NCBI GenBank assembly: GCA_028281625.1
Contig: JANQJN010000144.1
Coordinates: forward strand, 1 to 42,725
DNA from: Emcibacteraceae bacterium
GTDB lineage: Bacteria > Pseudomonadota > Alphaproteobacteria > Sphingomonadales > Emcibacteraceae
Direction of reading: 5' to 3'
DNA length: 42,725 nt
Below are positions 13,562-40,376 of the stretch, in pieces. Every line of letters starts with the position of its first letter. The stretch's first letter is position 1. The position numbers and the translations under genes are program-made. The notes under the pieces are model-generated. The model was given only the letters and a program-made list of their open reading frames with translations, was not told the DNA's origin and made no database searches.

Positions 13562-15991
13562 TTATTCGTAATGCAATGCATTCACTGGATTTGTTCTTGC
13601 AACCTTATAGGCATGACTGGCGACCGTGGCCCAGGCAATCACCAGACCGATTAAACCCGCAAAGAACAGCAGATCAAAGGGCAGTGAAATACGGTCGACA
13701 AAGAGATCCAGGTAGGTCTTAGATGTAAGATACGCCAGTGCCAGCCCTACGGGAGTTGCCCAAAGGACAGGTTTTGAAAACTGCCAGATCAACAGCTTTA
13801 CAATCTGACCGTTGTTGGCGCCAAGTGCTTTTCTGATACCGATTTCCCTGGTTTTTTGTTCCGCCATATAGGCCGCTAGCCCAAACAACCCGATGGCCGC
13901 GAGGAATAGCGCGAAGAGCGCAAATCCCGCCAGCGCCTTGGTGCTGGTTTCAAAAAAGACAAAGATCATTTGGAATGTTTCATTAAGGAACTTACCCTGC
14001 ATCGGATAGTCCGGATATACTTCTTGCCATACATCTTCGATATCGTTCACCACACTGGCGGGAGCATTCCCGGCGATCGTCAGTGATGCAACGCGGTAGT
14101 AAGCATCCCGCATGATAAAATAATAGGGTTTAACATCGGTAAATAGCCCCAGAAGATTTCGATCTTCCAAGACACCGATTACGGTATAAGTGGTGATGCC
14201 GTATTCTTCGCCTTCATCCTCGTAAAACACATTGCCGACAGCGTCCTGCGCTGAGGTAAACCCAAGCTGCTTCGCGCCCAGCTCATTTAAAAGCACATTA
14301 ACGGTGTTGCGCTCTCTCGTTTGTGTGTCGGCTGGATTGGCTTTGTCAAAATTGCGTCCTTCAACAAGAGGGATATTGAAGGTATCGACAAATTGATCAT
14401 CTATAAACACATAGCTTAAGCTGGTGCCATTTTCCACATCGGCACGGTCAGCGGAAACCCGGCTTGAGCTGTTGGTTTGCTCGTATGGAACCTGTGAGGA
14501 TAGTGTGAAATTTTCCACATAGGGTATCGTTAGCATTTGATTTCGCAGTGTCTCGTGTCGGTCTTCCATTTGTTCAACATCAAGGCGATCAAGTGTGTAA
14601 ATCTGGTCCTTGGGAAATATCCTGCTGTTTTCTTCCACCTGCTGATTTTGCGCATACACAACCAGGACGGACGCCAGAATACACACGGATATGGTAAACT
14701 GTACCGCAATCATAGCCGCCCTGATCCAACTTGCGGAACGGCCTTTACGGGCAGTGTCCCGAAGAGCTTCGATGGGGTTGGTTTTAGTAATCAGATAGGA
14801 TGGATAAGCTCCGGCAAAAAGCCCTACACCAATGACTGTGAGCACAATCCAGGGAAGTGTGTTGGCATAATCAATGGCGAGTATTTTACCGGTGGCGGAA
14901 TTAAACATGGGGATGATCGCTTCCAGTACCGCAAGAGCGAACACCATCGCAATGAACGTAATGGTGATACTTTCGGTGATAAACTGGACTAGCAGTTGAC
15001 CTTTACCGGCACCGAGTGTTTTTCGAAGGCCCACTTCCCGCGCCCTTGCCATGGACTGTGCCGTAGCAAGATTGGTATAATTTACGCAGGCCACAAACAG
15101 TACCAGCAGCCCCAATACTGCGATAATATCAATGATGGGAATACCGATCATATCCCACATTGCGGTGTTGGCGTCGGTGAGGGGGCGTGGGAATATCCCG
15201 CTTAAGAATCCGCGTCTGTCTTCCGGGTAATGGCGTTCGTAAATACCGTCCAGCTGGGTTTCTAACCACTGCTGATCCAAGTGCGGTGGAAGCATCACGT
15301 AGGTGAGATTTCCCGATGACGTATTACCCCAGTTGGTGTCCGGCTCGAAATCAGCAATTCTTTGCATGGCATTCATCGGCACCAGAATTCCCAATGAATT
15401 ATCGACAGGGATTTTTGAACTAAAATGGGAATTTGCCGGTGGCTTTCTTATGACACCACTTACCGTCAGGTCATGCTCATGATTTAAGGAAATTGTCTTG
15501 CCAATCGGATTTTCATCTTGAAAAAATTTATCTGCAATTTCCTCGGTAATCAGCGCGTCCGTTGAGCTGTTCAGGGCGGTCTGATCCCCTTCAATATATT
15601 CAAAATCAAATATTTGCAGCAGTTCAGGATCGGCGTAACGAATTATTTCGTAGATATCGGTATCACCAACGGTTACCAGATATTCTCTGTTTATGGTGCG
15701 GGCTATGGCTTCAATATCGGTGAGTTCGGCCTTAATGATCGGACCAAAGGCCGCTTGCACATTGTCGATTTGATTAACGCCCATATTGGCGCCAGGGGCA
15801 ATCTGCCCTCGCAGGGTATAGATATGCTCAGAATTTTCGTAAAATGCATCATGGCTATATTCATAATTGGCAATCAAGTTGCCAAAAATAAATAGCGTTA
15901 GACCCATGGCTAGGCCGACGATATTGATAGCGGCGTAAAGCTTGTTACGGCCTATATTACGAATGGCGACTTTGAAGTAATTGCTTAGCAT
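13562..15991 (-). CDS. ABC permease P10 (group B), double MacB_PCD/FtsX
   Basis: 809 aa; last permease of the array. TM1 at about 20-42, first periplasmic core domain to about 270, then three TM helices with coupling motif RAREVGLRKTLGA, a TM near 425-450, second periplasmic domain to about 675, and a final three-TM block with KTREIGIRKALGA then LLIWQFSKP; ends NPVNALHYE. It is closest to P6, not to its neighbour P9, in the region opening the second periplasmic domain (both contain VEQMEDRHETLRNQML and SSQVPYEQTNS). It lacks the MDTHIRENGAVNAL-like stretch kept by P6 and P8 and instead has TQTRERNTVNVLL. RBS AAGGAAG directly after the P9 stop. Confidence 0.93.
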   Translation of the reverse strand: MLSNYFKVAIRNIGRNKLYAAINIVGLAMGLTLFIFGNLIANYEYSHDAFYENSEHIYTLRGQIAPGANMGVNQIDNVQAAFGPIIKAELTDIEAIARTINREYLVTVGDTDIYEIIRYADPELLQIFDFEYIEGDQTALNSSTDALITEEIADKFFQDENPIGKTISLNHEHDLTVSGVIRKPPANSHFSSKIPVDNSLGILVPMNAMQRIADFEPDTNWGNTSSGNLTYVMLPPHLDQQWLETQLDGIYERHYPEDRRGFLSGIFPRPLTDANTAMWDMIGIPIIDIIAVLGLLVLFVACVNYTNLATAQSMARAREVGLRKTLGAGKGQLLVQFITESITITFIAMVFALAVLEAIIPMFNSATGKILAIDYANTLPWIVLTVIGVGLFAGAYPSYLITKTNPIEALRDTARKGRSASWIRAAMIAVQFTISVCILASVLVVYAQNQQVEENSRIFPKDQIYTLDRLDVEQMEDRHETLRNQMLTIPYVENFTLSSQVPYEQTNSSSRVSADRADVENGTSLSYVFIDDQFVDTFNIPLVEGRNFDKANPADTQTRERNTVNVLLNELGAKQLGFTSAQDAVGNVFYEDEGEEYGITTYTVIGVLEDRNLLGLFTDVKPYYFIMRDAYYRVASLTIAGNAPASVVNDIEDVWQEVYPDYPMQGKFLNETFQMIFVFFETSTKALAGFALFALFLAAIGLFGLAAYMAEQKTREIGIRKALGANNGQIVKLLIWQFSKPVLWATPVGLALAYLTSKTYLDLFVDRISLPFDLLFFAGLIGLVIAWATVASHAYKVARTNPVNALHYE

Positions 15992-16003
15992 AATGTCACT
16001 TCC

Positions 16004-18427
16004 TTATTCATGATGCAGGGCATTGACCGGATTGGTGCGTGCGACGCGATAAGCATGTGTTGCCACAGTTCCCCAGGATAGCATAAGACCGATCAGACCA
16101 GCGCCAATCAGAACTTCGAACGGCATTGAAATGCGATCCGGGAAATATTCAAGATAAAGATTTGAAAAATAGTAGGCGATCATAAGTGCAATGGGTATCG
16201 CCCATAAAACCGGTTTTGAAAATTGCCAAATTAGGAGCTTCACGATTTGCCCCGAATTAGCACCAAGTACTTTTCGAATGCCAATTTCTCTGGTTCTTTG
16301 TTCCGCCATAAAGGCTGCCAGACCAAATAGTCCAATAAGCGCTAGGAACATGGCGAAGACCGAAAAAGAAGCAAGCGATTTTGCGCTGACATCAAAAAGC
16401 ATAAAGAGTTCCTGAAAACGCTGATCCAGAAAACGTGCCTGGAAGGGATATTCTGGGTTAACGCGCGCCCAGACAGTTTCAATTTCGCGAATTGTCTGCT
16501 CGCTGGCACTTTCGCCAAGTTTTACGGATGCATGACGGTAGCTGTCGGGACGCGCAAAATAGACAAAAGGCACAATTTCATTTTGAAGGCCGTAAATATT
16601 CTGATCTTCAATCACGCCTACGATGGTATAAGTGGTCAAACCACTACGGTCGTTTTCGTAAAATTGTTGCCCAATAGCGTTCTGCGGATTATCAAAGCCC
16701 ATACTTCTTACCGCGAGCTCGTTAACAAGTGCATTCACGGCACCGCGCTCACGCACATGAGTATCCAGTGCAATGTCCAGACTGGTTTGTCGACCCGCCA
16801 CCAATGGAATGTCATAAGTATCCAGGAAATCATGATCGGCAACCATTTGATTGATGAAAAACCCTCCTTCGATATTTGCAGCATCAGTTGATGTTACAAA
16901 ACGATTTCTAAATCCTTCATATGGGACTTGCGACGAATATGAAAAATTTTCCACACTATCTATTTTTAGCACTTCCCGCTTAAATATTTCGTGTCTGGTT
17001 TCGACTTCAGCAATACCGACCCGGTCAATGGTAAATATCAATTCGTTTGAGAATATGTTGCTGGCTTCTTCCACCTTGTTATTCTGGGAATTTACAACCA
17101 AAACAAACGCCAGCATAAACACGGAAACAGAAAATTGCGCAGCGATCATCAATCCGCGAATGAGCGCTGAAAACTTACCTTTTCTTGTGTTATCTCGCAG
17201 CGCTTCGGAAGGGTTTGTTTTGGTAATCAGGTATGCCGGATATATTCCCGACGCGCCCCCAACAATGACAACTGTTGCAAGTAACCATGGAATCAATTCC
17301 ACGTAGTTTAGGATGATCTCTTTACCTGTTAAGTTATTAAAGGATGGCACTGTCGCTTCCAATGCAGCGAGAGAAACGATCATGGCGACCGCTGTAACCA
17401 ACATACTTTCGGTGACAAACTGAACAAGTAGCTGGGCTGGACTGGCCCCCAGCGTTTTTCGAAGCCCCACTTCGCGTGCACGGCGCAGGGACTGAGCGGT
17501 GGCGAGGTTCGTATAATTCAGGCAGGCGACAAATAGAATGACGATACCGAGAATTTTGACAATATCGATGGCAGGAATGCCAATCTCATCCCAGACGGAC
17601 GCATTAACATAAGTAATCGGTTGGGCAAATAGACCGGAGACTGTACGCCGCCTGTCTTCGTCATAATGACGTTCATATATGCCCGAAAGTTGCTCATTAA
17701 GCCATGTCTGATCCAGGGACGGAGGCAGTAATACATAAGTCAGATTGCCGGTAGACATTTCGCCCCAGTTTTCGTCTGGGCTTCTGCCTTCCAGTTGTTC
17801 CACAAGCGTTAGAGGTGCGATCAGTTCAAGCGGGCGATTAATGGTGATGTTTGAATTAAAATGTGTGTTGGCAGGAAGGTCTTCGATCACCGCCCCGACA
17901 ACCAGATCAACTTCATGATTGATGCTGATGGTTTTTCCCAGTGCCTCTTCGTCAGGGAAAAATTTGTTCGCCATTGATTTGGTTAAAACTAATGAGCTTC
18001 CGTTCTCAAAGGCTGATTTATCGCCGGCAATATAGGTAAAATCAAAAACATCAAGCAAACTGAAATCCGCAAAACGAACGGTTTGATAGTAGGTGTCGTC
18101 TCCGGACGCCGTTAGATAACTGCGCGTGACGGTGCGGGCGATCTGCTCGATTTCGGGAAGGTCCGTTTTGATAAGTGGTGTGGCGGCAGTATAAATTGAG
18201 TTAAAAACCTCTTCCCCGTCACCACTGCGCGAAAGAAATTTTGATCCCACGGTATAAATGCGATCGGAATTTGCAAAGAACGCATCGTGGGAATGCTCAT
18301 AGTCATAAAACAACCCACCGAAGATATAGAGCGTTAACCCCATGGCCAGACCAAGAATATTGATAAAGGCATAAAGCTTGTTTCTGATGATGTTGCGAAA
18401 AGCTGTTTTTAGATAGTTTTCAAGCAT
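16004..18427 (-). CDS. ABC permease P9 (group B), double MacB_PCD/FtsX
   Basis: 807 aa, the shortest of the ten. Same two-half layout: N-terminal TM, large periplasmic domain, three-TM block with RAREVGLRKTLGA, mid TM, second periplasmic domain, and three-TM block with RTREIGIRKVLGA and LLIWQFSKPVLWA; ends NPVNALHHE (HHE rather than the HYE of its block). The periplasmic parts differ strongly from P8 and P10 (for example FLSRSGDGEEVFNSIYTAA near residue 70), while the cytoplasmic loops are nearly the same, which fits a shared ATPase and a different ligand (inference). SD AAGGA overlaps the end of P8 (GAATAAGGA). Intact, no internal stop. Confidence 0.93.
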   Translation of the reverse strand: MLENYLKTAFRNIIRNKLYAFINILGLAMGLTLYIFGGLFYDYEHSHDAFFANSDRIYTVGSKFLSRSGDGEEVFNSIYTAATPLIKTDLPEIEQIARTVTRSYLTASGDDTYYQTVRFADFSLLDVFDFTYIAGDKSAFENGSSLVLTKSMANKFFPDEEALGKTISINHEVDLVVGAVIEDLPANTHFNSNITINRPLELIAPLTLVEQLEGRSPDENWGEMSTGNLTYVLLPPSLDQTWLNEQLSGIYERHYDEDRRRTVSGLFAQPITYVNASVWDEIGIPAIDIVKILGIVILFVACLNYTNLATAQSLRRAREVGLRKTLGASPAQLLVQFVTESMLVTAVAMIVSLAALEATVPSFNNLTGKEIILNYVELIPWLLATVVIVGGASGIYPAYLITKTNPSEALRDNTRKGKFSALIRGLMIAAQFSVSVFMLAFVLVVNSQNNKVEEASNIFSNELIFTIDRVGIAEVETRHEIFKREVLKIDSVENFSYSSQVPYEGFRNRFVTSTDAANIEGGFFINQMVADHDFLDTYDIPLVAGRQTSLDIALDTHVRERGAVNALVNELAVRSMGFDNPQNAIGQQFYENDRSGLTTYTIVGVIEDQNIYGLQNEIVPFVYFARPDSYRHASVKLGESASEQTIREIETVWARVNPEYPFQARFLDQRFQELFMLFDVSAKSLASFSVFAMFLALIGLFGLAAFMAEQRTREIGIRKVLGANSGQIVKLLIWQFSKPVLWAIPIALMIAYYFSNLYLEYFPDRISMPFEVLIGAGLIGLMLSWGTVATHAYRVARTNPVNALHHE

Positions 18428-18438
18428 GGCCTTTATCC

Positions 18439-20865
18439 TTATTCGTAATGCAGGGCGTTAATGGGGTTTGTCCGTGCCACTTTGTAGGCATGTGTTGCAA
18501 CTGTGGCCCAGGCGAGAACAAGGGCCACGAAGCCCGACGCCAGTAGTGGAGCAATTTGAAGTTCAATTCTTTCTGCGAACAGCTCCAGGTAAAAATCCGT
18601 CGCGACATAGGCCAGCACGAGCGCAAAGGGTGTTGCCCACAGTACGGGTTTTGAAAACTGCCAGATCAGAAGCTTAATGATTTGCGGACTGCTGGCACCA
18701 AGCACCTTGCGTATGCCTATTTCTTTTGTGCGTTGTTCCGCCATGAAAGCAGCCAGGCCGAACAAACCGATGAGTGCGAGCAATAATGCAAAAAGCGCGA
18801 GTCCACCCAGCGCGTTAGAGATCATCTGAAAAATACTGTAAATAAACTGAAAATGATCATCCAGGAATTGACCTTGCATGGGATAATCAGGGATGACCCG
18901 GTTCCAGGTCTCTTCTATTTCATTGATGGTGTCTAAGGAAGCATTGCTGGATATAAGCAATGATGCTTGACGATAAGAGGCTGGCCTCATAAAAAAGGCG
19001 TAGGGTGGTAGTTTTTGATGAAGACCCATGATGTTGGTGTCTTTGGTAACACCGACGATGGTATAAGCGGTGATGCCAAGATCGCCTTCGTCCTCATAGA
19101 ACTGTTGACCGAGCGCTTCTTCATTTGATGAAAAACCCAGTTCTCTGACTGCAAGTTCATTGACCAAGGCATTGACGGCGCCATTTTCCCGAATATGGGT
19201 ATCCATAGCCACCTCAAGGCTAATATTGCGCCCTGCGACCAGATCTATGTCGTAGGTATTCAAGAACTCATAATCCATGTTGATCTGTCTGAAATTTACA
19301 CCCGTTGGGATTTCGGGAATTGTGCGGGCGCCAAGAAAACCACTTTGTCTTGGCTCGAACGGCACTTGTGAAGAAAGAGTGAAGTTGAGCACACCGGGAA
19401 TTTTCAGCATTTCCGTTCTAAGCAGTTCGTGGCGCTGCTCAATTTGTTCTACATCAATGCGACCAAGGGTATAGATCTGGTCTTTGGCGAATATATTGCT
19501 TTTTTGCTCCATAATTTTGTTTTGTGCGTAGACTACAATCACTGCCGCAAGCATAAAGACAGAGATGGTAAACTGAATGCCGATCATGGTGCTTCTAATC
19601 CAGGTTGAGCCGCCTTGCTTACTTTGACCGTCCCTTAGTGCTTCGATGGGGCTTGTTTTGGTGATCAGATAAGCTGGATATGAACCGGACAGGCCACCAA
19701 CAATAATGATGGTTGTTATGAGCCACGGCATAATTTCCAGATAGTTCAGGGTGAGAACTTTGCCGGTTGTGTTATTAAAAATGGGCAGTAACGCTTCCAG
19801 CGCGGCCAGCGCAACCACCATTGCAATTGTCGTTAGTGTAATACTTTCGACGATAAACTGGCTAAGAAGTTGCTTTTGTCCCGCCCCCAATGTTTTGCGA
19901 AGGCCCACTTCCCGTGCGCGTGCCATCGATTGCGCTGTGGCAAGGTTTGTGTAATTCACGCAGGCAATGACCAAAATAAGAAGGGAAAAATACTCGATAA
20001 CCCCAATCGCCGGGATGTCCGCCGTATCCCAAAGTGATAGATTTGCGCGAATGAGTGGCTTGGCACCAAGGGATCCGATAAATCCTTTGTCTTCCTGTGA
20101 ATAGTGGCGTTCATGAATGCCGATCATCTGATCTTCAAGCCAGGCTTCGTCATATTCTTCCGGCAGCAGAACATATGTAAAATTCCCGTCAGAAAGATCG
20201 CCCATATTTTCATCAGGATTGAAACCGGTGGTTCGTTCGTAAGCACTCATGGGAAGCAGAATTTCCAGATCTACATCGGGCACGATCTGGGAATTAAAAT
20301 GGGTATTTGCTGGCAGGTCTTCGATCACGGCAGTGATTTGAAAGGCGTGGGTATGATCCAGTGTAATGGTTTTTCCAATGGCATCTTCACCTGGAAAAAG
20401 TTTGCTCGCAAGACTTTGGGTCACTAAAGCGCCATTTGAATTATCAAGGGCTGTGTTTGATCCTTGTAAATAGTTGAAATTAAATATTTTTAGAAGGTCT
20501 GCATCCGCGAACCTTAAATCCTGATAGAAGTGATTGTCGTCAACTGAAATCAAATATTCCAGGATTATTGTACGCGCGATTGCTTCAGGCTCTTCATATT
20601 CGGTACGTAAAATTGGGCCAATGGCAGGATAGACAGCGGGATGCTCCATTCCTTCAAAGTTACTATCTGGACCAAAGAAGGACGACAGCGTGTAGGTACG
20701 GTCGATATTTTCAAAGAAGGTATCGTGGGTATATTCGTAGTCCGCAAACAGGCTGCCGAAAATATAGAGTACCAGCCCCATGGTAAGACCCAGTATATTG
20801 ATGAAAGCATAAAGCTTGTTTCGCATGATATTGCGAAACGCCACGGTCAGATAATTTTTAAACAT
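18439..20865 (-). CDS. ABC permease P8 (group B), double MacB_PCD/FtsX
   Basis: 808 aa. Coupling motifs are RAREVGLRKTLGA (first half) and RTKEIGIRKVLGA followed by IIKLLIWQFSKP (second half); ends NPINALHYE. Closest to P7 in many stretches (IYTLGRIDVEQIEQRHELL; SSQVPFE; DYPMQGQFL). It is separated from P7 by 63 nt containing a strong hairpin, the widest gap between any two permeases, but has its own good ribosome site (AGGGAAG). It could therefore be translated at a different level from P1-P7 (inference). Confidence 0.93.
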   Translation of the reverse strand: MFKNYLTVAFRNIMRNKLYAFINILGLTMGLVLYIFGSLFADYEYTHDTFFENIDRTYTLSSFFGPDSNFEGMEHPAVYPAIGPILRTEYEEPEAIARTIILEYLISVDDNHFYQDLRFADADLLKIFNFNYLQGSNTALDNSNGALVTQSLASKLFPGEDAIGKTITLDHTHAFQITAVIEDLPANTHFNSQIVPDVDLEILLPMSAYERTTGFNPDENMGDLSDGNFTYVLLPEEYDEAWLEDQMIGIHERHYSQEDKGFIGSLGAKPLIRANLSLWDTADIPAIGVIEYFSLLILVIACVNYTNLATAQSMARAREVGLRKTLGAGQKQLLSQFIVESITLTTIAMVVALAALEALLPIFNNTTGKVLTLNYLEIMPWLITTIIIVGGLSGSYPAYLITKTSPIEALRDGQSKQGGSTWIRSTMIGIQFTISVFMLAAVIVVYAQNKIMEQKSNIFAKDQIYTLGRIDVEQIEQRHELLRTEMLKIPGVLNFTLSSQVPFEPRQSGFLGARTIPEIPTGVNFRQINMDYEFLNTYDIDLVAGRNISLEVAMDTHIRENGAVNALVNELAVRELGFSSNEEALGQQFYEDEGDLGITAYTIVGVTKDTNIMGLHQKLPPYAFFMRPASYRQASLLISSNASLDTINEIEETWNRVIPDYPMQGQFLDDHFQFIYSIFQMISNALGGLALFALLLALIGLFGLAAFMAEQRTKEIGIRKVLGASSPQIIKLLIWQFSKPVLWATPFALVLAYVATDFYLELFAERIELQIAPLLASGFVALVLAWATVATHAYKVARTNPINALHYE

Positions 20866-20894
20866 GTTTTCTTCCCTACCTTCCTAAATTTATA

Positions 20895-20923
20895 AAGCGC
20901 GCAGCTCCCTACGCTGCGCGCTT
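20895..20923 (-). other. Strong hairpin between permeases P7 and P8
   Basis: AAGCGCGCAGC (20895-20905) and GCTGCGCGCTT (20913-20923) are perfect inverted repeats: an 11-bp, GC-rich stem with a 7-nt loop. On the transcribed strand it starts 5 nt after the P7 stop and is followed by TATAAATTTAGG rather than a clean U-run. It could act as a partial terminator, a 3'-end stabiliser or an RNase processing point that divides the 30-kb message. Confidence 0.7.
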
Positions 20924-20928
20924 GAGCG

Positions 20929-23355
20929 TCATTCATAATGAAGCGCATTTACCGGATTTGTTCGCGCGACACGGTACGCGTGAGTTGCCACTGTTGCCCA
21001 GGAAAGAGCGACACCAACAATGCCTGCGATTACCAGTGAAGCGACTGGCAGATTGATGCGATCTTCAAATATCTGCAGATAAATGTCAGATGCAAAATAG
21101 GCACCCACCAGGGCAATTGGAGTGGCCCAGAGCACTGGCTTCGAAAATTGCCAGATCAGAAGTTTTACAATCTGCCCGCTGTTGGCGCCAAGCACCTTAC
21201 GGATGCCAATTTCCTTGGTGCGGCGCTCGGCCATAAAGGCCGCCAGACCAAACAGGCCAATAAGCGCCAGCATCAGTGCAAACACAGCGAATGCCGTCAG
21301 CGATTTTGAGCCCATATCAAAAATGCGGTACGTCATCTGAAAATGAGAGCTCAGGAATTGCCCCTGCATTGGAAACTCCGGATAAATCTGATCCCAAACG
21401 CGCTCTATTTCATTTATGGTTTGTGGCGTAGCATTTTCTGAAAGCTTGAGCGATGCCAGTCTGTAGGACGCTGGACGCATAAACATGATAAACGGTTTTA
21501 AGCGCTGATGAACACCCATGATGTTTGTGTCGTCGGTGACCCCCACGATGGTGTAGGTTGTAATGCCGCGTTCACCTTCGTCTTCATAGAAAACTTGCCC
21601 CACAGCTTCCTCAGCGCTTTCAAACCCGAGGGACCTCGTGGCAATTTCATTGACAAGAACATTCACTCGTCCATTTTCACGGACATGGGTATCAAGAGCG
21701 ACTTCACGTGTAATTGGGCGACCAGCGATAATCGGAATGTCGTAGATGGACAAGAATTCCGGATCAATATTTAGCTGATTGATGTTAAAGCCATTGGGAA
21801 TGTCTGCAATGGTCCGGGATGTCATGAACATATTCTGGTATGTTTCGAACGGAACCTGCGAGGAAAGTGAGAAATTTTCCACGCCACTAATTTTGAGCAT
21901 CTCATTGCGCATCAGCTCATGACGTTCTTCAATTTCATCAATATCAATGCGGCCTAGGGTATAAATCTGGTCCTTGGCAAAAATATTGCTACTTTGTTCA
22001 ACATTTTGATTTTGCGCATAAATCACCGAAACCAACGCCAGCATAAATACGGACACCGCAAATTGCACCGCTATCATGCTGCTTCTGATCCAGGTCGAGG
22101 CCTGACCTTTTGTTCCAACGTCCCGTAGCGCTTCTACGGGTGATGTCTTGGTGATCAGATAAGCTGGGTAAGAGCCAGACACGATGCCGACCACAAAAAC
22201 AGTACCAATGATGGTTGGCAGTATTTCAGAGTAATTCAGCGCGATGCCTTTACCAGCCATACTGTTAAAGACTGGCAGCATCCCTTCCAGGATCACCAAT
22301 GCGACGATCATCGCAAGTGATGTAACGGTAATACTTTCGATGATAAATTGCGAAAGAAGCTGCATCGGTCCCGCTCCAAGAGTTTTTCGAAGACCCACTT
22401 CACGTGCACGGCCAAGGGATTGTGCGGTCGCAAGGTTTGTATAATTCAGACAGGCAATCAGCAACACGCCAATTCCAAGAACACGCACGATTTCAATAGT
22501 CGGTACACCTGCCATATCCCAGAAGGCTGTGTTTGCCTCAATCAGCGGTCTTGTTTTTAGACTGCCAATGAAGCGCTTCCTTTCGTTGGAGTAATGGCGG
22601 TCATAAACAGAATCCATTTGGGTTTGAAGCCAAGCCTGATCAAATTCCCGTGGCAGCATGACGTAGGTCATGTTGCCAGAGGAAAGCATGCCCATATTGT
22701 CGTCTGGGTTGAAATTTGCCACGGTTGGCATAGCCGAAATGGGAAGCACTAATTCAAAATCCACACCATATACCGGCATGGAATTAAAATGTGTGTTGGC
22801 GGGCAGGTCTTCTATTACCGCTGAAATTTGAAAACTATGCTCGTTGTTTATGGAAAGGGTTTTTCCAACCACATTGTCACCGCCGAAATATTTAAGTGCG
22901 GTTGAACGAGTAACAAGCGCACCATTTGCTGTATTCAGCGCACTTTCGTCGCCGTGGATATAGTTAAAATCAAATATCTTCAGGAGGTCAGGATCTGCGA
23001 AGCGAAGCTGTTGGTAAAAGCTTTCGTCTTCAACGGATACCAGAAACTCCCAAATAATGGTTCGTGCGACAGCATCGGCTTCATCATATTCAGCCTTAAA
23101 GCGGGCGGCGACAGCAGGGTAGACGGTATTATTTTCAACGCCTTCTATGCCGGAATCTCTCCCGAAAATGGTCGAAACAGTGTATGTGCGGTCATGATTG
23201 GTAAAAAAAGTATCATGATTATATTCGTACTGCGAATAAATGCCGCCGAAGATGAAAAGAACGAGCCCCATCGCCAGCCCCAGCACATTGATAAGCGCAT
23301 AGAGCTTGTTTCGCAGGATATTCCTGATGGCTACGGTTACATAATTATATATCAT
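20929..23355 (-). CDS. ABC permease P7 (group B), double MacB_PCD/FtsX
   Basis: 808 aa. First coupling loop RAREVGLRKTLGA preceded by LNYTNLATAQS; second RTKEIGIRKVLGA with GQIVKLLIWQFSKP; ends NPVNALHYE and uses TGA as stop, unlike the TAA/TAG of its neighbours. N-terminal TM and double glycine pattern NVLGLAMGLVLFIFG are typical of the group. The second periplasmic domain shows DTHVRENGRVNVLVNE and YEDEGERGITTYTIVGV shared across group B. SD AGGAC overlaps the P6 end (GAATAGGAC). A strong hairpin follows its stop. Confidence 0.93.
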   Translation of the reverse strand: MIYNYVTVAIRNILRNKLYALINVLGLAMGLVLFIFGGIYSQYEYNHDTFFTNHDRTYTVSTIFGRDSGIEGVENNTVYPAVAARFKAEYDEADAVARTIIWEFLVSVEDESFYQQLRFADPDLLKIFDFNYIHGDESALNTANGALVTRSTALKYFGGDNVVGKTLSINNEHSFQISAVIEDLPANTHFNSMPVYGVDFELVLPISAMPTVANFNPDDNMGMLSSGNMTYVMLPREFDQAWLQTQMDSVYDRHYSNERKRFIGSLKTRPLIEANTAFWDMAGVPTIEIVRVLGIGVLLIACLNYTNLATAQSLGRAREVGLRKTLGAGPMQLLSQFIIESITVTSLAMIVALVILEGMLPVFNSMAGKGIALNYSEILPTIIGTVFVVGIVSGSYPAYLITKTSPVEALRDVGTKGQASTWIRSSMIAVQFAVSVFMLALVSVIYAQNQNVEQSSNIFAKDQIYTLGRIDIDEIEERHELMRNEMLKISGVENFSLSSQVPFETYQNMFMTSRTIADIPNGFNINQLNIDPEFLSIYDIPIIAGRPITREVALDTHVRENGRVNVLVNEIATRSLGFESAEEAVGQVFYEDEGERGITTYTIVGVTDDTNIMGVHQRLKPFIMFMRPASYRLASLKLSENATPQTINEIERVWDQIYPEFPMQGQFLSSHFQMTYRIFDMGSKSLTAFAVFALMLALIGLFGLAAFMAERRTKEIGIRKVLGANSGQIVKLLIWQFSKPVLWATPIALVGAYFASDIYLQIFEDRINLPVASLVIAGIVGVALSWATVATHAYRVARTNPVNALHYE

Positions 23356-23367
23356 TGTGTCGTTGTC

Positions 23368-25800: not shown

Positions 25801-25815
25801 TTTTTTCTCTTTTCT

Positions 25816-28281: not shown

Positions 28282-28290
28282 AATTTTTTC

Positions 28291-30777: not shown

Positions 30778-33230
30778 TCGTACCTTAACGCTTTAATGGG
30801 ATTGGCTTTGGCGACACGCATACTGTTTCCGACAACTGTCGCCCAGGCAATGAGCAGTGCAAGGAAACCAGCAGCTACGCAGAAGCCAATGATGACGAAA
30901 TTATCAATCCGGTAGGTAAATCCTTCGAGCCAGCTTGACATAAAGTAAAAAGAAACAGGCCAGGCAATAAGGTTTGCAATCATCACTGGTTTTGAAAACT
31001 GCCAAACCAACAGGCGGACCACTTCAAAGACGCTAGCGCCCATCACTTTGCGGATGCCAATTTCCTTGATGCGGCGCTCTGCGGTGAAGCTCGCAAGCCC
31101 GTATAGTCCAAGACTTGAAATCACAATAGCGAGCCCTGCGAACAGCAGGAACAGCTGACCTTGATCCTGATCTGCTTTATATTGTTCAGCAATGCGGTCA
31201 TCCAGGAATGACTGAGTGAAGGGTACTTGTGGGAACATGTCTTTCCAGATGGCATTCACATCGCTTATTAATGCGGCCATGTTCTCAGTGGTGATCTTGA
31301 AAGTGAGGCGATAGTAAAATTCTTGATCAATGTAATAAAGCGTAGGGTTTGTCTCATCCCGGGTGGACCCAAGATGAATATCCGGAATGACACCGACAAT
31401 GGTAAAGGCAGTTTCATCAATCAGTCTTTTACCGATGGCATCTTCGGCGTTAGTAAATCCAAATTGGCCAATAGCGGATTCGTTGATCAGCACATTTGCC
31501 TCGTCACGCTGGTTCTGGCCATAAAGGGTGGTGATGTCATCCCCGCGGGTTTCGTCCAAATTCCTGCCGGCGATCATATTGATGCCGTAGGTTTTCAGAT
31601 AATCTTCATCAATACTTTGAATGCGGGAAAGAATAGGATCTACAGCCACGCCGCCAACATTGCCAAAACCGATGATCGCAACCATTCGATCAGCGGGAAC
31701 AGAAGAGGTTAGCGTCGCGTCGGTAATATCTGGGTGATCAAGCAGGCGCTGTTTTAAGATATTGGCTTGTCCCATCACAAGTGGATCACGGATCCGATCA
31801 AGGACAAGAAGATTCTCTTTATTATAGCCTGCATCGCGATTGATGCTGTAAGCAAGCTGCGAATAAACAACGAGCGCGGACACAATAAGCGAAATACAGA
31901 TGGTAAACTGAACCACCACCAGCACTGTTCTAAAACGAATTGATCCAATGGGCTCTGATCTTCCGGAAGAAAGCACGCGACTTGGCCTAAAGGATGACAT
32001 GACAAATGCCGGGTGCGATCCTGCGCCAACGGCAACTAGCAGTGTTAGCGCAATAAGTATCCCCAATGTCACTGGCGAATGCAGCGCATCAATGCCCATC
32101 ACTTTGTCAACCATGATGTTGTAATAGGGAAGGGAAACTTCCACCAGTACCAGTGCCAGGAGGAATGCCATAAAAGCCATAAAAGCCGCTTCGCTAAGGA
32201 ATTGCACCACAATATCCTTCTTGGCGGCACCAAGAACTTTACGCAGGGCCACTTCCTTTGATCGCAGGCTAGCGCGTGCGGTTGAAAGGTTCATAAAGTT
32301 AAAGCAGGCAATGACAAGGATCATAAAGGCGATGAGAGCGAAAGACACAATGGTGGTCATGCTGCCTTTTGGTTTAATCCGTGCAGATTCTGATCCTTTA
32401 AGGTGGATGTCCTCTAGTGGCATCAGATGCAGTTCCCATCGCTCGCTGGGGACGATGGTATCATTGGGTCGCGGACCACGACGATCAAGGAATGCGGGAA
32501 ATTTGGCTTCGGCTGTGGCTTCTGTGCCTTGCGCATTCATATTCACGTAAATGTATGTACCAATGTTAAACCAATCGTCTAAAAGGGACAGTGGGCCATT
32601 TTCATCGGCGGGCTGTGGGAATTCTGCGTAGCTTAACGGTATGATAATATCCAAGTCCATATGGGTCGTTGTCGGCAGGTCCCGAAGCACCGCGCTTACA
32701 CGGTAATCACGCCCATTACTTAGCGTAAGGCTGTTACCCACCACATTGGTTGAACCAAAATATTTGATCGCCATTTCTTCGGACAGGATCACAGCTGTGG
32801 GATCGGAGAGCGCTTGATCCTTGCTACCATGCAAGAACGGGTAGTCGAAAATTTCAAAAAAATTCGTTTCGGCAAAGGCTACTGTTTCCGCAATGTAATC
32901 CTGCCCGTTTCTGATGTTGCGGTCGGCATAGTAAAGCCTGGCAACCTGATCAAATTCAGGGAAATCCTGCTCTAGGAAGGGTTTTAATGGCCCCATGGTT
33001 GCCGCAAGGTGGAATGTTCTAGCGGTTGGCGGGTGGCTTATAAGCTCAACGCGGTAAATGTTGTCGCTATTGGGAATCCACGCATCGTAGTTAAGCTCAT
33101 CTTTGATGAAAAGCATAATCAGGATACAGGTTGCAAACCCAACAGCCAGACCAATGATGTTAATGGCGCTGAAAAGCTTGTGCTTGATAATATTGCGACT
33201 GGCGCTGACGAAGTAATTGGCAAGTTTCAT
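30774..33230 (-). CDS. ABC permease P3 (group A), double MacB_PCD/FtsX
   Basis: 818 aa. Coupling motifs RSKEVALRKVLGA and RRIKEIGIRKVMGA (Ile instead of Thr at the third place), then LLVWQFSKPVMIANLIAWP; ends NPIKALRYE. The inter-half loop reads SSFRPSRVLSSGRSE, unlike the FRPAExLKANQS of P1, P2 and P4, so it is a distinct branch within group A. Its periplasmic domains share little beyond the framework with its neighbours (for example IIPLSYAEFPQPADENGP). RBS GAGGT before ATG; the stop TGA overlaps the P4 start. Confidence 0.93.
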   Translation of the reverse strand: MKLANYFVSASRNIIKHKLFSAINIIGLAVGFATCILIMLFIKDELNYDAWIPNSDNIYRVELISHPPTARTFHLAATMGPLKPFLEQDFPEFDQVARLYYADRNIRNGQDYIAETVAFAETNFFEIFDYPFLHGSKDQALSDPTAVILSEEMAIKYFGSTNVVGNSLTLSNGRDYRVSAVLRDLPTTTHMDLDIIIPLSYAEFPQPADENGPLSLLDDWFNIGTYIYVNMNAQGTEATAEAKFPAFLDRRGPRPNDTIVPSERWELHLMPLEDIHLKGSESARIKPKGSMTTIVSFALIAFMILVIACFNFMNLSTARASLRSKEVALRKVLGAAKKDIVVQFLSEAAFMAFMAFLLALVLVEVSLPYYNIMVDKVMGIDALHSPVTLGILIALTLLVAVGAGSHPAFVMSSFRPSRVLSSGRSEPIGSIRFRTVLVVVQFTICISLIVSALVVYSQLAYSINRDAGYNKENLLVLDRIRDPLVMGQANILKQRLLDHPDITDATLTSSVPADRMVAIIGFGNVGGVAVDPILSRIQSIDEDYLKTYGINMIAGRNLDETRGDDITTLYGQNQRDEANVLINESAIGQFGFTNAEDAIGKRLIDETAFTIVGVIPDIHLGSTRDETNPTLYYIDQEFYYRLTFKITTENMAALISDVNAIWKDMFPQVPFTQSFLDDRIAEQYKADQDQGQLFLLFAGLAIVISSLGLYGLASFTAERRIKEIGIRKVMGASVFEVVRLLVWQFSKPVMIANLIAWPVSFYFMSSWLEGFTYRIDNFVIIGFCVAAGFLALLIAWATVVGNSMRVAKANPIKALRYE

Positions 33231-33242
33231 TATTGGTACCTC

Positions 33243-35717
33243 TTATTCATATCTTAGCGCTTTGATTGGATTGGCTTTGGCGACACGCATACTGTTACCC
33301 GCGACCGTGGCCCAGGCGATGAGCAGCGCAGCTATGCCGGCAATGGCGCAGAAACTAAATATGAGGACATCCTCAATTCGGTAAACAAAGCTTTCGAGCC
33401 AGATCGACATGGCGTAAAAGGAAACGGGCCATGCGATCAGATTGGCGATGATCACCGGTTTTGAAAATTGCCAGACCAGAAGTTTCACAATATCGTAAAC
33501 GGTTGCGCCCATCACTTTACGCACACCAATTTCTTTGGTGCGGCGTTCGGCGGTAAAGCTGGCAAGGCCATATAAACCCAAGCAGGCAATAAAAATTGCC
33601 AAACCGGAGAAGGCGGCGAACATGGTCATTTCACCTTGCTCAGTTGCATATTGCTCAGCCAATTGATCAATGGCGTGATCGTAGCCAAATGGAATGCTGG
33701 GTACTTCCTGTTCCCAGATTGCCTGTGCGGCACTTACCATTGCAGCCGGGTCACCAGTAAAACGGATGGTGATATATTGGGCAAACTCTGGCCTGAGCTC
33801 GAATATTTCCGGACGCATTTCTTTCTTGAGAGTATCCAGGTAGACATCCGGAATAACACCAATGATGGTGTGTTCTCTGATCACCTCTCCTTCGTCACCA
33901 CTAAGCGGTCGATAAAGCAGTTTGCCAACAGCTTCCTGAGGTGTGCCCAGCGCAAATCTGTTCAGTGCTGTTTCATTTATGATCAGGGCACTGGAATGAC
34001 CTTCACCAGCAACAATACTTTCATAGGTGGCCCGTTCATCATTCATGTTGATGTCGTAATATCGTCCGGCAAGTAGAGGAATTTGGTAGGTTTCGAAATA
34101 ATCATATCCGATGCCGCGATTGCCCATCAGCAGGCTTTCTGTTTCCGGCATTTCCGGCGTGCGCATTCCGGTGTTGTTTTCTGTTGGTCTGCCCGGTGCA
34201 TCGTTGGACCAGGTTACGCTAATGGCTTGCGGCAAGCGCTTGTATTCCTCAACCAGCAGCGATAGTTTTTCACTCGCCGCATCGCGGAAAAGATTATTGA
34301 TGACCAGAAGATTTTCCTTGTTAAACCCAAGATCTTTATTTTTTGCATAAAGCATCTGGCCGTAGACCACCGCAGTGGATACAAAGAGCGTGATACTGAC
34401 CGCAAATTGGAAAATAACCAATGCTGCTCTCAATTTAGCCGAAGCACCTGTTTCTGAGGATTGGTTGGCCTTCAGGACTTCCGCAGGTCGAAATCCGGAT
34501 AGAATGAGTGCTGGATATATGCCGCCCAGCACTCCAACCGATACAGCGAGACCAATAATGATCAAAACGTCAGTGGATGCATAATTAAAGGCTAGTTGTT
34601 TGCCAATTGTCTGATTGTATATAGGTAAAGCCATTTCTACGATGACGACAGAGACAAACAAAGCAACTAAGGTGATGATTATGGATTCACCGATAAATTG
34701 GACGACCAGATTTTTTCTTGATGCGCCCATTACTTTGCGCAGGCTGACTTCCTTGGCACGCTGACTGGCGCGGGCGGTGCTTAAATTCATAAAATTGATA
34801 CTGGCGATTACCAGTATCAAAATGGCAACCGCTGAAAAGGTAATTACGGTAGCCATGCTGCCCATTGGCTTATACTCGCCATTGGATGGTCCTAAAAGAT
34901 GCAGATCTTCGATGTTCTGTGAATTAAGAAGTATAAAACTGGAAACGCGGTCACCGTTATCCTGTTCCGGGAAATGACGATCGATAAAGGCAGGCATCTG
35001 GTCATTTATGTCAGTGATATCAGAGCCTGGGGTCAGGCTAAAATAAAGGTGAGCATTAACGGAAAACCACTGGTCGAACATCCAGCTCTGTACCTTCCAT
35101 TCTTCTTCAACAATTGAGACAATGGCGGAGGCGGCCAGCTGACTGTTTTCTGGCATATCTTCGATGATTGCCCTTACAACGAATTCGCGCTCGTAAACAT
35201 CAGCATTAATTGTGATAGATTGGCCAAGTGCACTGCCATCCGGAAAGTATTTGTCGGCTAATGTTTTGTTCAGCACGAGTGAACTTTGATCTTCAAGAGT
35301 ATTTTCCAGACTTCCTTCTAAGACATTAAAATCAAAAATCTGAAAAAAGCCGGGATCTACAAGACTGATCTGTTCTTCAAAATACTGATTATCCATTATG
35401 AAGGTTGCGCGTTTATTGGCTTCTCGTGACGCTTCGACCACCTGTGGGAAGTCCTGCTCAAGCGCGTGATAAATCTTGCCGGCAGCAACCGAAAACACCA
35501 TTGGTGGACGCCCTGTAGGGAGGAAAGTCTGATGCATGCGGTAAATATTATCCGCATTATCCCAAAATCTATCGTAAGAGACCTCATCACGTACAAAGAG
35601 TGCGATGAGCATACATGCGGCAAGCCCGATGGCAAGCCCAAGTATGTTGATGGCGCTGAATAACTTATGGTTATAAATGTTGCGCCAGGCGCTTACGGTA
35701 TAGTTTTTCAGGATCAC
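33243..35717 (-). CDS. ABC permease P2 (group A), double MacB_PCD/FtsX
   Basis: 824 aa, starting at GTG (35717) with GAGAGGAAAG upstream; no in-frame ATG fits this conserved N-terminus (ILKNYTVSAWRNI). Coupling motifs RAKEVSLRKVMGA and RTKEIGVRKVMGA with LLVWQFSKP; ends NPIKALRYE. Close to P1 in the membrane parts (INILGLAIGLA; ASINFMNLSTARAS; SGFRPAEVLKANQS), more different in the periplasmic domains. Upstream, between it and P1, lies a 12-nt vestige of a permease end. Confidence 0.93.
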   Translation of the reverse strand: MILKNYTVSAWRNIYNHKLFSAINILGLAIGLAACMLIALFVRDEVSYDRFWDNADNIYRMHQTFLPTGRPPMVFSVAAGKIYHALEQDFPQVVEASREANKRATFIMDNQYFEEQISLVDPGFFQIFDFNVLEGSLENTLEDQSSLVLNKTLADKYFPDGSALGQSITINADVYEREFVVRAIIEDMPENSQLAASAIVSIVEEEWKVQSWMFDQWFSVNAHLYFSLTPGSDITDINDQMPAFIDRHFPEQDNGDRVSSFILLNSQNIEDLHLLGPSNGEYKPMGSMATVITFSAVAILILVIASINFMNLSTARASQRAKEVSLRKVMGASRKNLVVQFIGESIIITLVALFVSVVIVEMALPIYNQTIGKQLAFNYASTDVLIIIGLAVSVGVLGGIYPALILSGFRPAEVLKANQSSETGASAKLRAALVIFQFAVSITLFVSTAVVYGQMLYAKNKDLGFNKENLLVINNLFRDAASEKLSLLVEEYKRLPQAISVTWSNDAPGRPTENNTGMRTPEMPETESLLMGNRGIGYDYFETYQIPLLAGRYYDINMNDERATYESIVAGEGHSSALIINETALNRFALGTPQEAVGKLLYRPLSGDEGEVIREHTIIGVIPDVYLDTLKKEMRPEIFELRPEFAQYITIRFTGDPAAMVSAAQAIWEQEVPSIPFGYDHAIDQLAEQYATEQGEMTMFAAFSGLAIFIACLGLYGLASFTAERRTKEIGVRKVMGATVYDIVKLLVWQFSKPVIIANLIAWPVSFYAMSIWLESFVYRIEDVLIFSFCAIAGIAALLIAWATVAGNSMRVAKANPIKALRYE

Positions 35718-35730
35718 TTTTCTTTCCTCT

Positions 35731-35742
35731 CTATTCGTATCG
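35731..35742 (-). pseudogene. Vestigial permease end: codons for RYE-stop between P1 and P2
   Basis: On the transcribed strand CGATACGAATAG reads Arg-Tyr-Glu-stop, the exact C-terminus of group-A permeases. It lies one base past the P1 stop, which itself closes AGATATGAATAA (also RYE-stop), and in a different frame. It looks like the scar of a deleted or recombined extra permease copy. At 12 nt a chance origin cannot be excluded. Confidence 0.45.
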
Positions 35743-35743
35743 C

Positions 35744-38224
35744 TTATTCATATCTCAGGGCGTTTACCGGATTGGCCTTTGCGACACGCATGCTGTTGCT
35801 GGCGACGGTTCCCCACGCGATAATGAGTGCGGTGACACCGGCCATCAGACAGAATGCGATGATCAGGTTGACCTCAATACGGTAAACAAAATTTTCAAGC
35901 CAGACGCTCATGGCATAGAACGAAATCGGCCATGCCAGCAGATTGGCGATAATCACCGGTTTTGAAAACTGCCAAACCAGTAGTTTCACCACTTCAAATA
36001 CACTGGCACCCATCACTTTTCTGATGCCAATTTCCTTGGTGCGGCGTTCGGCCGTGAAGCTAGCAAGGCCATAAAGTCCCAGGCAGGCGATGAATATTGC
36101 CAGGCCGGAAAATGCCGCGAACATGCTCGCCTGTCCTTGCTCCGCCTGATACTGGCGGTCAATGGCTTCCGCGACAAATTCACCGTCAAACGGAATGCTC
36201 GGGATTTCACGTTCCCAAAGAGCTTTTACTTGTGCAAAAAATGTTTCTGGATCACCTGTAAAGCGCGCGGACAGGATTGACGCATAATTTGAATCCAGAT
36301 CATATATTTCGGGACGAATTGTGCTTTTTAAGCTGTCAAAATGCACATCCGGCACCACGCCTATCACTTCATAAGTGGCAGTCAGGCCTTCTTCCGGTTG
36401 GCCAGCACCAGCGAAAATCAGCTTGCCGATGGCTTCTTCCGGTGTGCCAAGACCAAGGCGGCGGACGGCCGATTCATTGATCATGGTTTGACCAGTATAA
36501 ATATTCCCTTCGCGCAGATCACTGGTGAAAACCGTTCTGTCCCCGCGCTCAAGGTTATATTCGCGGCCAGCGACAAGGTCGACCTGATATGTCGTGAAAT
36601 AATCGTGACTTATACTCCGGTTACCAATCAAAACAGCATCTTCAGTGGACTGGCCTTCAATATGAACGATGGTGTTGTTCTGATGTACATAGCCTGGCAT
36701 AAAGTTTGACGTGCTTACAGCGACGGCTTGCGGCATGCGGCGTATTTCAGTAAGCAGAAGGTCCATTTTTTCGAGTGCGACATCACGGTACATTTCACCA
36801 ACCGCAAGGATGTTGTCTTTCTTAAAGCCAAGATCCATATTTTTAGCATATAGCATCTGTCCGTAAACAACTGCGGTGGAAACAAACAGCGTGATGGATA
36901 CTGCAAATTGAAGGATCACCAGGGCGTAACGTAGCTTTACAGATGAGCTTGTTTCCACGGACTGATTTGCCTTCAGATTTTCTGCTGGTCTAAAACCTGA
37001 CAAGATAAAAGCGGGATAAATACCCCCCATAAAACCAACGGCGAAGGCAAGGAATATAACGCCCAGGATATCATTACTTGCGTAATTGATCGCAAGTTCC
37101 TTATCCAGGATCTCGTTATAGGTAGGCAGGGCCATTTCAACAATCGCAAGGGATATCAGAAGACCGAGAATGGTCAGTAAAATGGATTCGCCTAGAAACT
37201 GGATCACAAGATCCTTCCTTGATGCTCCCATTACTTTGCGAAGGCTGACTTCCTTTGCGCGCTGACTGGCGCGTGCTGTGCTTAGGTTCATAAAATTGAT
37301 CGCAGCGATCACAAGAATAAGCCCTGCCACAGTGGCAAAAATCACCACTGTGTTCATATTACCGGTGGGATGATATTCGCCTTCACGATTTGATTTAAGG
37401 TGTAAATCCTTAATGTTCATTGCTGACGTGGAAACTAGATCGGATGTATTATCCGCACCACCGAATGGCACTTCCGGGAAATTACGGTCTACAAAAGAAA
37501 CCATGTTATCGTTGATGTCCGCGATGTTTGTACCTTCGTGGGTCGCGAAGTAAAGCTGGCTGTTGGTTGAGAACCACGCATCAAACATATAGGGCTGATC
37601 CTGCCAGGCCGGCTCATCAATTGGGATGAGTGCTTCAGCAATCACCTGGCTGTTTTCAGCCATATCTTTGATTACTGCGGCGACAGTGTAATCGCGCTGA
37701 AACAGATCAAAGTCGATGGTAACAGTCTGACCAATCGGATTTGAGCTGCTAAAATATTTCTCAGCCAGCGTTTCATTAAGAACTATATTGCTGATATTAT
37801 CCAGCGCACCGTCGATATTTCCTGCAACCACATCAAGATCAAATATGGCTGCGAAGTCTGCATCAACAAGTGAGATATCATCAACAAAATACTGGTCACC
37901 CAGTATAACTGTTGGCTGCTGCCTTGAAATCCGTGACGCGTGTGTGACTTGTGGAAAGTCCTTCTTTAGTGCGTGAATGACAGGTCCTGGTGTCATTGCA
38001 GATTCAATGGGGTCCCGTCCAGGTACACTGAAGGTAATATGAATGCGGTATATATTGTCCGCTTTCGTCCAGAAGCTGTCATAGGACAGTTCATCACGAA
38101 CGAAAAGCGCAATCAAAATACAGGACGCAAGCCCGATGGCGAGACCAAGAATATTGATCGCGCTAAAAAGCTTGTGCTTGAAAATGTTGCGCCATGCGCT
38201 TCTTAAATAATTGGTAAGGAGCAT
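35744..38224 (-). CDS. ABC permease P1 (group A), double MacB_PCD/FtsX
   Basis: 826 aa; the first permease after the ATPase. TM helices at about 21-43, 292-315, 343-365, 385-410, 434-455 and three more between about 690 and 805: eight in all, i.e. two MacB-like four-helix halves in one chain. First periplasmic domain about 45-290, second about 460-685. Coupling motif 1 RAKEVSLRKVMGA (322-334) and motif 2 RTKEIGIRKVMGA with LLVWQFSKP. Ends NPVNALRYE. MacB itself has one half per chain and works as a dimer, so this protein should be a covalent pseudo-dimer. RBS AGGATA. Confidence 0.94.
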   Translation of the reverse strand: MLLTNYLRSAWRNIFKHKLFSAINILGLAIGLASCILIALFVRDELSYDSFWTKADNIYRIHITFSVPGRDPIESAMTPGPVIHALKKDFPQVTHASRISRQQPTVILGDQYFVDDISLVDADFAAIFDLDVVAGNIDGALDNISNIVLNETLAEKYFSSSNPIGQTVTIDFDLFQRDYTVAAVIKDMAENSQVIAEALIPIDEPAWQDQPYMFDAWFSTNSQLYFATHEGTNIADINDNMVSFVDRNFPEVPFGGADNTSDLVSTSAMNIKDLHLKSNREGEYHPTGNMNTVVIFATVAGLILVIAAINFMNLSTARASQRAKEVSLRKVMGASRKDLVIQFLGESILLTILGLLISLAIVEMALPTYNEILDKELAINYASNDILGVIFLAFAVGFMGGIYPAFILSGFRPAENLKANQSVETSSSVKLRYALVILQFAVSITLFVSTAVVYGQMLYAKNMDLGFKKDNILAVGEMYRDVALEKMDLLLTEIRRMPQAVAVSTSNFMPGYVHQNNTIVHIEGQSTEDAVLIGNRSISHDYFTTYQVDLVAGREYNLERGDRTVFTSDLREGNIYTGQTMINESAVRRLGLGTPEEAIGKLIFAGAGQPEEGLTATYEVIGVVPDVHFDSLKSTIRPEIYDLDSNYASILSARFTGDPETFFAQVKALWEREIPSIPFDGEFVAEAIDRQYQAEQGQASMFAAFSGLAIFIACLGLYGLASFTAERRTKEIGIRKVMGASVFEVVKLLVWQFSKPVIIANLLAWPISFYAMSVWLENFVYRIEVNLIIAFCLMAGVTALIIAWGTVASNSMRVAKANPVNALRYE

Positions 38225-40360: not shown

Positions 40361-40376
40361 TGCAAAGAGTGTGCCA
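40361..40376 (-). promoter_or_regulatory. Sigma-54 -24/-12 promoter of the exporter operon
   Basis: On the minus strand the site reads TGGCACACTCTTTGCA: TGGCAC at 40376-40371, five bases, then TTGCA at 40365-40361. The GG and GC dinucleotides are separated by exactly 10 nt, as sigma-54 holoenzyme needs, and it matches the TGGCAC-N5-TTGC consensus fully. Predicted start about 40350, giving a leader of about 35 nt before the adaptor gene. The adjacent regulator is of the sigma-54-activating type. Confidence 0.9.

Follow-up and report, generated by a model that had tools for sequence, protein, structure and literature searches.

Ten tandem duplicated MacB-type permease genes behind one ATPase and one adaptor gene in an Emcibacteraceae genome: a candidate case of a shared exporter motor

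Gene content of the locus

The window analysed here is a stretch of 42,725 nucleotides that makes up the entire contig C201 of the draft genome of a marine alphaproteobacterium of the Emcibacteraceae (G000 below; 3.9 Mb, 96% complete, 205 contigs). Its minus strand carries, in this order, a periplasmic adaptor gene, an ABC ATPase gene and, directly behind them, ten permease genes, numbered from P1 (positions 35744-38224), which adjoins the ATPase, to P10 (13562-15991). The encoded proteins have 807-828 amino acids, and the gaps between the genes measure, from P1 to P10, 26, 12, -4, 9, 15, 12, 63, 11 and 12 nt; these ORF coordinates bear out the initial annotation, which had described ten frames of this length on one strand, spaced by -4 to 63 nt.

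As for the single members, the DarB-like P1 (826 amino acids), P2 (33243-35717; 824 amino acids, GTG start) and P4 (28291-30777; 828) belong to one clade, named B; P3 (30774-33230; 818), which overlaps P4 by 4 nt, represents a separate orthologue group of the genus, and P5 (25816-28281; 821) is divergent; P6 (23368-25800; 810), P7 (20929-23355; 808), P8 (18439-20865; 808), P9 (16004-18427; 807) and P10 (809) fall into clade A. These assignments come from motifs and phylogeny and, for P1, also from an AlphaFold model. In the six permeases scanned with Pfam, FtsX occurs twice and MacB_PCD once or twice, and the coupling motif (R/K)EhxhRKxhGA is intact in both halves of all ten, so that the double MacB_PCD/FtsX layout and the two coupling motifs of the first description both hold. 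Genome-wide searches with the MacB_PCD and ADOP (TIGR03434) profiles reach the array, and the ADOP profile matches each of the ten without internal stops. Chance is excluded as a source of the array, since its members are 27-66% identical to each other and orthologous arrays exist in independent genomes. No structured RNA was found in Rfam, and promoter-like matches in the array did not exceed those in shuffled sequences; internal terminators on the array strand were considered and discarded, as the terminator-like matches fall within coding sequence and no clear intergenic case emerged.

The contig ends coincide with the window edges and the draft is split into 205 contigs, which might suggest an artefact of assembling a metagenome-derived genome; this is extremely unlikely, because other assemblies, among them a genome in a single contig, show orthologous members in matching order, and because the array lacks long stretches of identity at which copies might have been collapsed or wrongly joined.

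The ATPase (38279-38956, minus strand) has 225 amino acids and is of the LolD/DarD type, with all motifs intact: Walker A (GPSGCGKST), signature (LSGGQ), Walker B (ILADEPTGNLD) and the H-loop histidine; its score with the DarD model is 279.8 bits, against a cut-off of 375. The adaptor (39000-40316, minus strand; 438 amino acids) is of the HlyD/DarC type with one N-terminal TM helix, as judged from Pfam, NCBIfam and its structure model; it scores 134.8 bits with RND_mfp (TIGR01730), above the cut-off of 94.9, and 205.4 bits with the DarC model, whose cut-off is 450. Its model has a long helical hairpin at residues 125-248 (helices 125-185 and 191-248, about 60 residues each) together with lipoyl and barrel parts, and both score and model identify the membrane-fusion adaptor typical of tripartite exporters. 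One complete ATPase and one HlyD adaptor ahead of the array, as first proposed, are therefore present; a gene for a TolC-type outer-membrane channel was not recognised within the window. The locus is classified as a DarBCD-like (type VII, MacB family) tripartite exporter, with export as the predicted direction.

Upstream of the adaptor, a predicted sigma-54 (-24/-12) promoter, TGGCACACTCTTTGC (40362-40376, minus strand), places the start about 60 nt ahead of the ATG; in 39 of 76 relatives, the region upstream of the adaptor likewise has a site that matches in 9 or more of 11 positions, compared with 0.5 expected in shuffles. Divergently from the exporter genes lie a sigma-54-dependent response regulator of the NtrC/AtoC type (40499-41917, plus strand), recognised by Pfam and NCBIfam and conserved in position among relatives, and a sensor histidine kinase (41907-42725, plus strand) cut by the contig end; the kinase was assigned by position and similarity (about 450 amino acids at full length in relatives), and Pfam gave no match for the truncated piece. 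Promoter and regulator suggest that the genes form a single regulated unit.

At the other end of the array, a gamma-glutamyltranspeptidase-like (GGT) gene (11898-13520, minus strand) starts 41 nt after P10 and is probably part of the same transcript, and an Amidohydro_3 lipoprotein-like amidohydrolase gene (10236-11891, minus strand) follows 6 nt later; both were assigned by domain scan. The GGT gene also comes after the array in three relatives (G009, G010 and G012), and the amidohydrolase gene in G009 and G010. From these two neighbours one might guess at a peptide-like substrate. New relative to the earlier description of the locus are the divergent two-component pair, the sigma-54 promoter, and the GGT and amidohydrolase genes on the array strand.

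Farther away, the window encodes a patatin-like phospholipase with POTRA and Omp85-type C-terminal domains (6736-8961; a PlpD-like architecture), homologues of which are also found near the arrays of G008, G009 and G010. A cysteine synthase gene followed by an overlapping gene for a hexapeptide-repeat acetyltransferase of the serine acetyltransferase type (3841-5530) resembles a cysK-cysE pair, and a 316-amino-acid protein (1760-2710) has no Pfam match.

Predicted fold and class of the permeases

The AlphaFold model of P1 (pLDDT 90, pTM 0.83, from an alignment of 87 rows) comprises in its first half an amphipathic helix, TM1, a periplasmic domain, TM2, a coupling helix (residues 323-331), TM3, TM4 and a short C-terminal helix; the second half repeats this layout, with its coupling helix at 729-737. 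Compared over the whole chain, the fold comes closest to E. coli YbbP (Z 24.8 for 655 residues), with BceB next; taken singly, the halves match MacB, FtsX, HrtB and LolE. The model thus gives good support to the covalent pseudo-dimer that the initial annotation had thought probable, here a predicted 4+4-TM protein, yet the layout is not new, YbbP being built alike. Given its two four-TM units, one chain is enough to provide the two halves that a type VII transporter needs.

That each chain already has, on the P1 model, both halves for a full transporter bears on the idea that several permeases assemble into one large heteromeric complex and do not alternate. One operon-like gene run with an order conserved in the genus would suit such a complex; it is nonetheless very unlikely, also because the locus is complete in relatives that have a single permease.

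The structural features that define the type VII (MacB/FtsX) class are found: a unit of four TM helices, the first two of which flank a periplasmic core domain, seen by Pfam and present twice in the P1 model, and one coupling helix between TM2 and TM3 in each unit, located in the model and marked by the motifs in all ten chains. More specific models fit less well. The DarB model gives at best 161.8 bits among the six permeases scanned, below the DarBCD equivalog cut-off of 700, and P1-P10 score 214.5-303.5 bits with the ADOP model, whose cut-off is 622.3. An ADOP, moreover, has no adjacent ATPase gene; the array has one, and the copies scattered elsewhere in the genome do fit this description.

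Permease number, ATPase number and divergence among relatives

Starting from searches with the ATPase sequence, we read 80 named loci; the arrangement of kinase and regulator on one side and adaptor, ATPase and permease(s) on the other proved to be conserved. Among the gammaproteobacterial loci, 41 carry a single permease and five carry two, the remainder being cut by contig ends or having none counted; in Alphaproteobacteria, most loci run to the edge of the stretch read with at least two to at least five permeases. Within the genus, whose other named members are Emcibacteraceae MAGs, longer reading gave three permeases in G010, four in G008, five in G012 and six in G009, next to the ten of the window. 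Several other families of the order and Kordiimonas have four to seven, three genomes (G013, G014 and G027) have one only, and Kordiimonadales and Emcibacteraceae mostly have three to seven. Given these arrays in genus and order, the ten permeases are the top of a lineage-wide expansion and no isolated oddity. The statement that no characterised system of this gene number is known stands in so far as ten is the largest array found; as a kind the locus is not unique, arrays of three to seven behind the same ATPase and adaptor being common in the lineage.

Some related loci depart from this scheme. One member of a seven-permease array (G044; L186:7238-10621) has been disrupted by stops or frameshifts, the rest of the array being intact, from which it follows that not every copy is kept. 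G014 has a second adaptor-ATPase-permease unit (L046; G014:C1:2204344-2207474), whose permease reaches 614.7 bits with the ADOP model (cut-off 622) and is, by sequence, almost a true ADOP, yet not an orphan. In a Colwellia MAG, a second, distant adaptor-ATPase-permease-regulator unit lies directly behind the first (L120:13604-19612). Related permeases were also found in plasmid records of Spirosoma, Hymenobacter, Parabacteroides and Gemmatirosa; the 1-Mb plasmid NZ_CP007130.1 of Gemmatirosa kalamazoonensis has 20 places that match them.

Permeases outnumber their candidate motor even more at the genome level. The complete genome of the same genus, G012, encodes 13 duplicated permeases among the FtsX-domain proteins listed, five in the array and eight elsewhere, together with one DarC-like adaptor and one DarD-like ATPase (279.9 bits, the next ones at most 185). 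G000 has at least 24 permeases plus two fragments at contig edges (a draft of 205 contigs), one DarD-like ATPase (279 bits, compared with 190 for the second-best match) and one DarC-like adaptor, the number of adaptors being likewise one in all eight genomes tested. The ratio of permease to ATPase to adaptor is therefore 13:1:1 in G012 and at least 24:1:1 in G000. Dedicated ATPases elsewhere, which the initial annotation had named as the finding that would speak against a common motor, were looked for in the complete genome G012 and were not found: its next four DarD-matching ATPases and FtsE each adjoin partner genes of their own (a LolC-type permease, two large non-DarB permeases, an amino-acid importer and FtsX).

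The scattered permeases have no neighbouring ATPase, and in most of them both coupling helices are intact. A search for a common partner gene beside them found none of general occurrence. Related Sel1/TPR-like secreted proteins occur at several of these loci (L159, L165, L172 and L175), mostly directly upstream.

It should be considered that only P1, or a few permeases, use the neighbouring ATPase, the others working independently of it, for instance as sensors or substrate-binding membrane proteins, or borrowing another LolD-type ATPase of the cell such as LolD, YbbA or FtsE. The copies without an adjacent ATPase and the other LolD-like ATPases of the genome agree with this, as do the ADOP-type permeases that are named orphans, of which two Dyadobacter genomes have 28 and 33 copies (PMC11573002). 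We consider it rather unlikely. All ten array members and most scattered copies retain both coupling helices, as would hardly be expected of proteins that never meet an ATPase, and the other LolD-like ATPases of G012 stand beside their own partners and score 181-185 bits with DarD, against 280. The conserved motifs as such, being a family property, would be expected also if each permease had its own ATPase.

The relationships among the permeases were studied in a FastTree tree of 123 sequences. Each of P1, P2, P3, P5 and P6 clusters with its orthologues in further species of the genus (1:1 for P2, P5 and P6, the latter two in four genus members); P4 and P7-P10 are additional copies, P4 with no clear 1:1 orthologue in the arrays read and P9 close to a G008 member, and a scattered permease of G000 on contig C188 falls in the P6/P10 group. 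Two old clades separate P6-P10 from the other permeases, although the deep branches are tentative because FastTree support values are local. Single-permease Gammaproteobacteria carry either clade, with an ATPase 79-85% identical to that of the window; this comparison suggests that the DarD-like type of ATPase fits both permease clades.

Conservation along the chain is uneven. The coupling-helix and C-terminal blocks are 50-78% identical among P1-P10, and many periplasmic blocks 13-30%. For pairs with 70-80% identity in the membrane parts, periplasmic identity is 47% between paralogues (6 pairs) and 66% between orthologues (24 pairs), an effect that is strong in P1-P4 and weak in P6-P10. Gene conversion homogenising the membrane parts was considered and rejected: there is no exact shared block longer than 29 nt, and P1 and P2 are as similar within a genome as between genomes.

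These data also bear on ordinary tandem amplification, by which the genes would be recent or neutral, redundant duplicates and the number ten transient. Array length does vary from three to ten within one genus, P4 and P7-P10 are additional copies, and the G044 array has its broken member. Still, such an origin seems quite unlikely for copies that are only 27-66% identical and all open, that keep their orthologue groups across species, and whose periplasmic domains diverge faster between paralogues than between orthologues. The orthologues of P1, P2, P3, P5 and P6 in other species and the lack of shared blocks beyond 29 nt point instead to old subtypes that have been kept.

At equal permease divergence, ATPase identity is 92-97% between multi-permease loci and 82-89% between single-permease loci (bins from 60% up), and with binning by adaptor divergence the ATPase is more conserved in multi-permease genomes by about 7-9 points in most bins. 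This slower evolution is suggestive of sharing and no proof, being confounded by lineage, since the multi-permease genomes are mostly Alphaproteobacteria and the single-permease ones mostly Gammaproteobacteria; the only clearly single-permease Kordiimonas in the comparison fits the trend of Alphaproteobacteria.

Overall, one ATPase and one adaptor probably serve interchangeable permeases of different substrate specificity. Gene content, intact frames, the predicted fold of P1, the promoter sequence, the phylogeny and the genome-wide counts of permeases, ATPases and adaptors are observations; docking, sharing, export direction and different substrates we infer. Sharing is supported by the permease-to-ATPase ratios, by the partner genes of the other ATPases and by the occurrence of either clade with a similar ATPase; different specificities are suggested by ATPase-facing parts that stay alike while the periplasmic domains diverge more between paralogues than between orthologues. 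The initial annotation had spoken of an exporter library with one motor and one adaptor: sharing is now the best-supported reading, and goes beyond the earlier claim because the same genomes hold many more such permeases and still one ATPase and one adaptor, while the library of exporters is something we continue to infer.

Mechanistically, a DarBCD-like exporter would be under sigma-54 control, and its ATPase and adaptor would be common to a permease set expanded in this lineage. Each permease half would contribute four TM helices, a coupling helix and a periplasmic core domain; two copies of the ATPase and a single permease chain would form the complete transporter, which the adaptor would link to an outer-membrane channel. 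Any of P1-P10 could use the same ATPase through its conserved cytoplasmic coupling helices, and the divergent periplasmic domains would confer different substrate specificities. The scattered permeases of the array type probably use this ATPase too. More tentatively, and with somewhat less confidence than we would need to call it probable, the locus may be a hub-type exporter in which one MacB-family ATPase and its adaptor power the ten array members and the scattered permeases in turn, an arrangement that would explain in general how orphan permeases of the ADOP type obtain their energy.

Comparison with known systems

The closest relative is DarBCD, the putative darobactin exporter (NF038008, NF038010, NF038007), which likewise has a duplicated permease, an adaptor and a separate LolD-like ATPase; DarC and DarD are the best NCBIfam matches of the window adaptor and ATPase. 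The window proteins differ in lying below all three equivalog cut-offs, in the number of permeases (ten, against one in Dar) and in their regulation by a sigma-54 two-component system; also, a radical SAM enzyme was not recognised among the window ORFs scanned, another difference from Dar. DarBCD gives no firm hint to the substrate, because it was not essential for darobactin production in heterologous work (PMC9055067) and the literature searched contained no transport assay for it.

ADOPs, the acidobacterial duplicated orphan permeases, share the duplicated MacB_PCD/FtsX layout, the large paralogous families and the many copies without a neighbouring ATPase; the ten of the window differ in following an ATPase and an adaptor and in their ADOP scores (215-304 bits, cut-off 622). 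Duplicated orphan permeases are on record without a function, as are the Dyadobacter copies mentioned above (PMC11573002). Such MacB/FtsX-type permeases reach tens of copies in some bacteria and are annotated as orphans, and in the present lineage a family of this kind is physically linked to a single ATPase and a single adaptor, the single-permease Gammaproteobacteria serving as a simple reference state.

MacAB-TolC and LolCDE resemble the window system in the type VII fold, the coupling helix between TM2 and TM3 and the LolD-like nucleotide-binding domain, and MacA also in its hairpin. MacB is a homodimer fused to its own ATPase, LolCDE works with two permeases and lacks an adaptor, and YbbAP has one permease per ATPase; to our knowledge, neither MacAB-TolC nor LolCDE shares its ATPase with a permease family. 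E. coli YbbAP (PDB 9ge6, 9ge7), which provided the best whole-chain fold match, also has its ATPase as a separate protein beside a covalent 4+4-TM permease, which is 12% identical to P1. The open-access literature searched yielded no shared ATPase for MacB-type exporters and nothing relevant on tandem arrays of MacB-type permeases.

Sharing of this kind is on record for importers, in which one energising ATPase or module serves several membrane components of different specificity: the energising module of subgroup II ECF transporters (PMC3246461), MsmK (PMC4519317), MceG, the loss of which destabilises both of its transporters (PMC9947336), and, reportedly, FhuC (PMC10147376). All of these differ from the window system in being importers and of other ABC types. 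If one motor does power many permeases here, deleting or inhibiting a single ATPase would silence the whole set of exporters, and substrate specificity could be read from comparisons of the periplasmic domains. This would then be the first case of a shared ATPase that we know of among MacB-type exporters. On that reading, the locus would be an exporter counterpart of the shared-module ECF importers, and it yields a specific hypothesis, open to experiment, about what powers duplicated orphan permeases.
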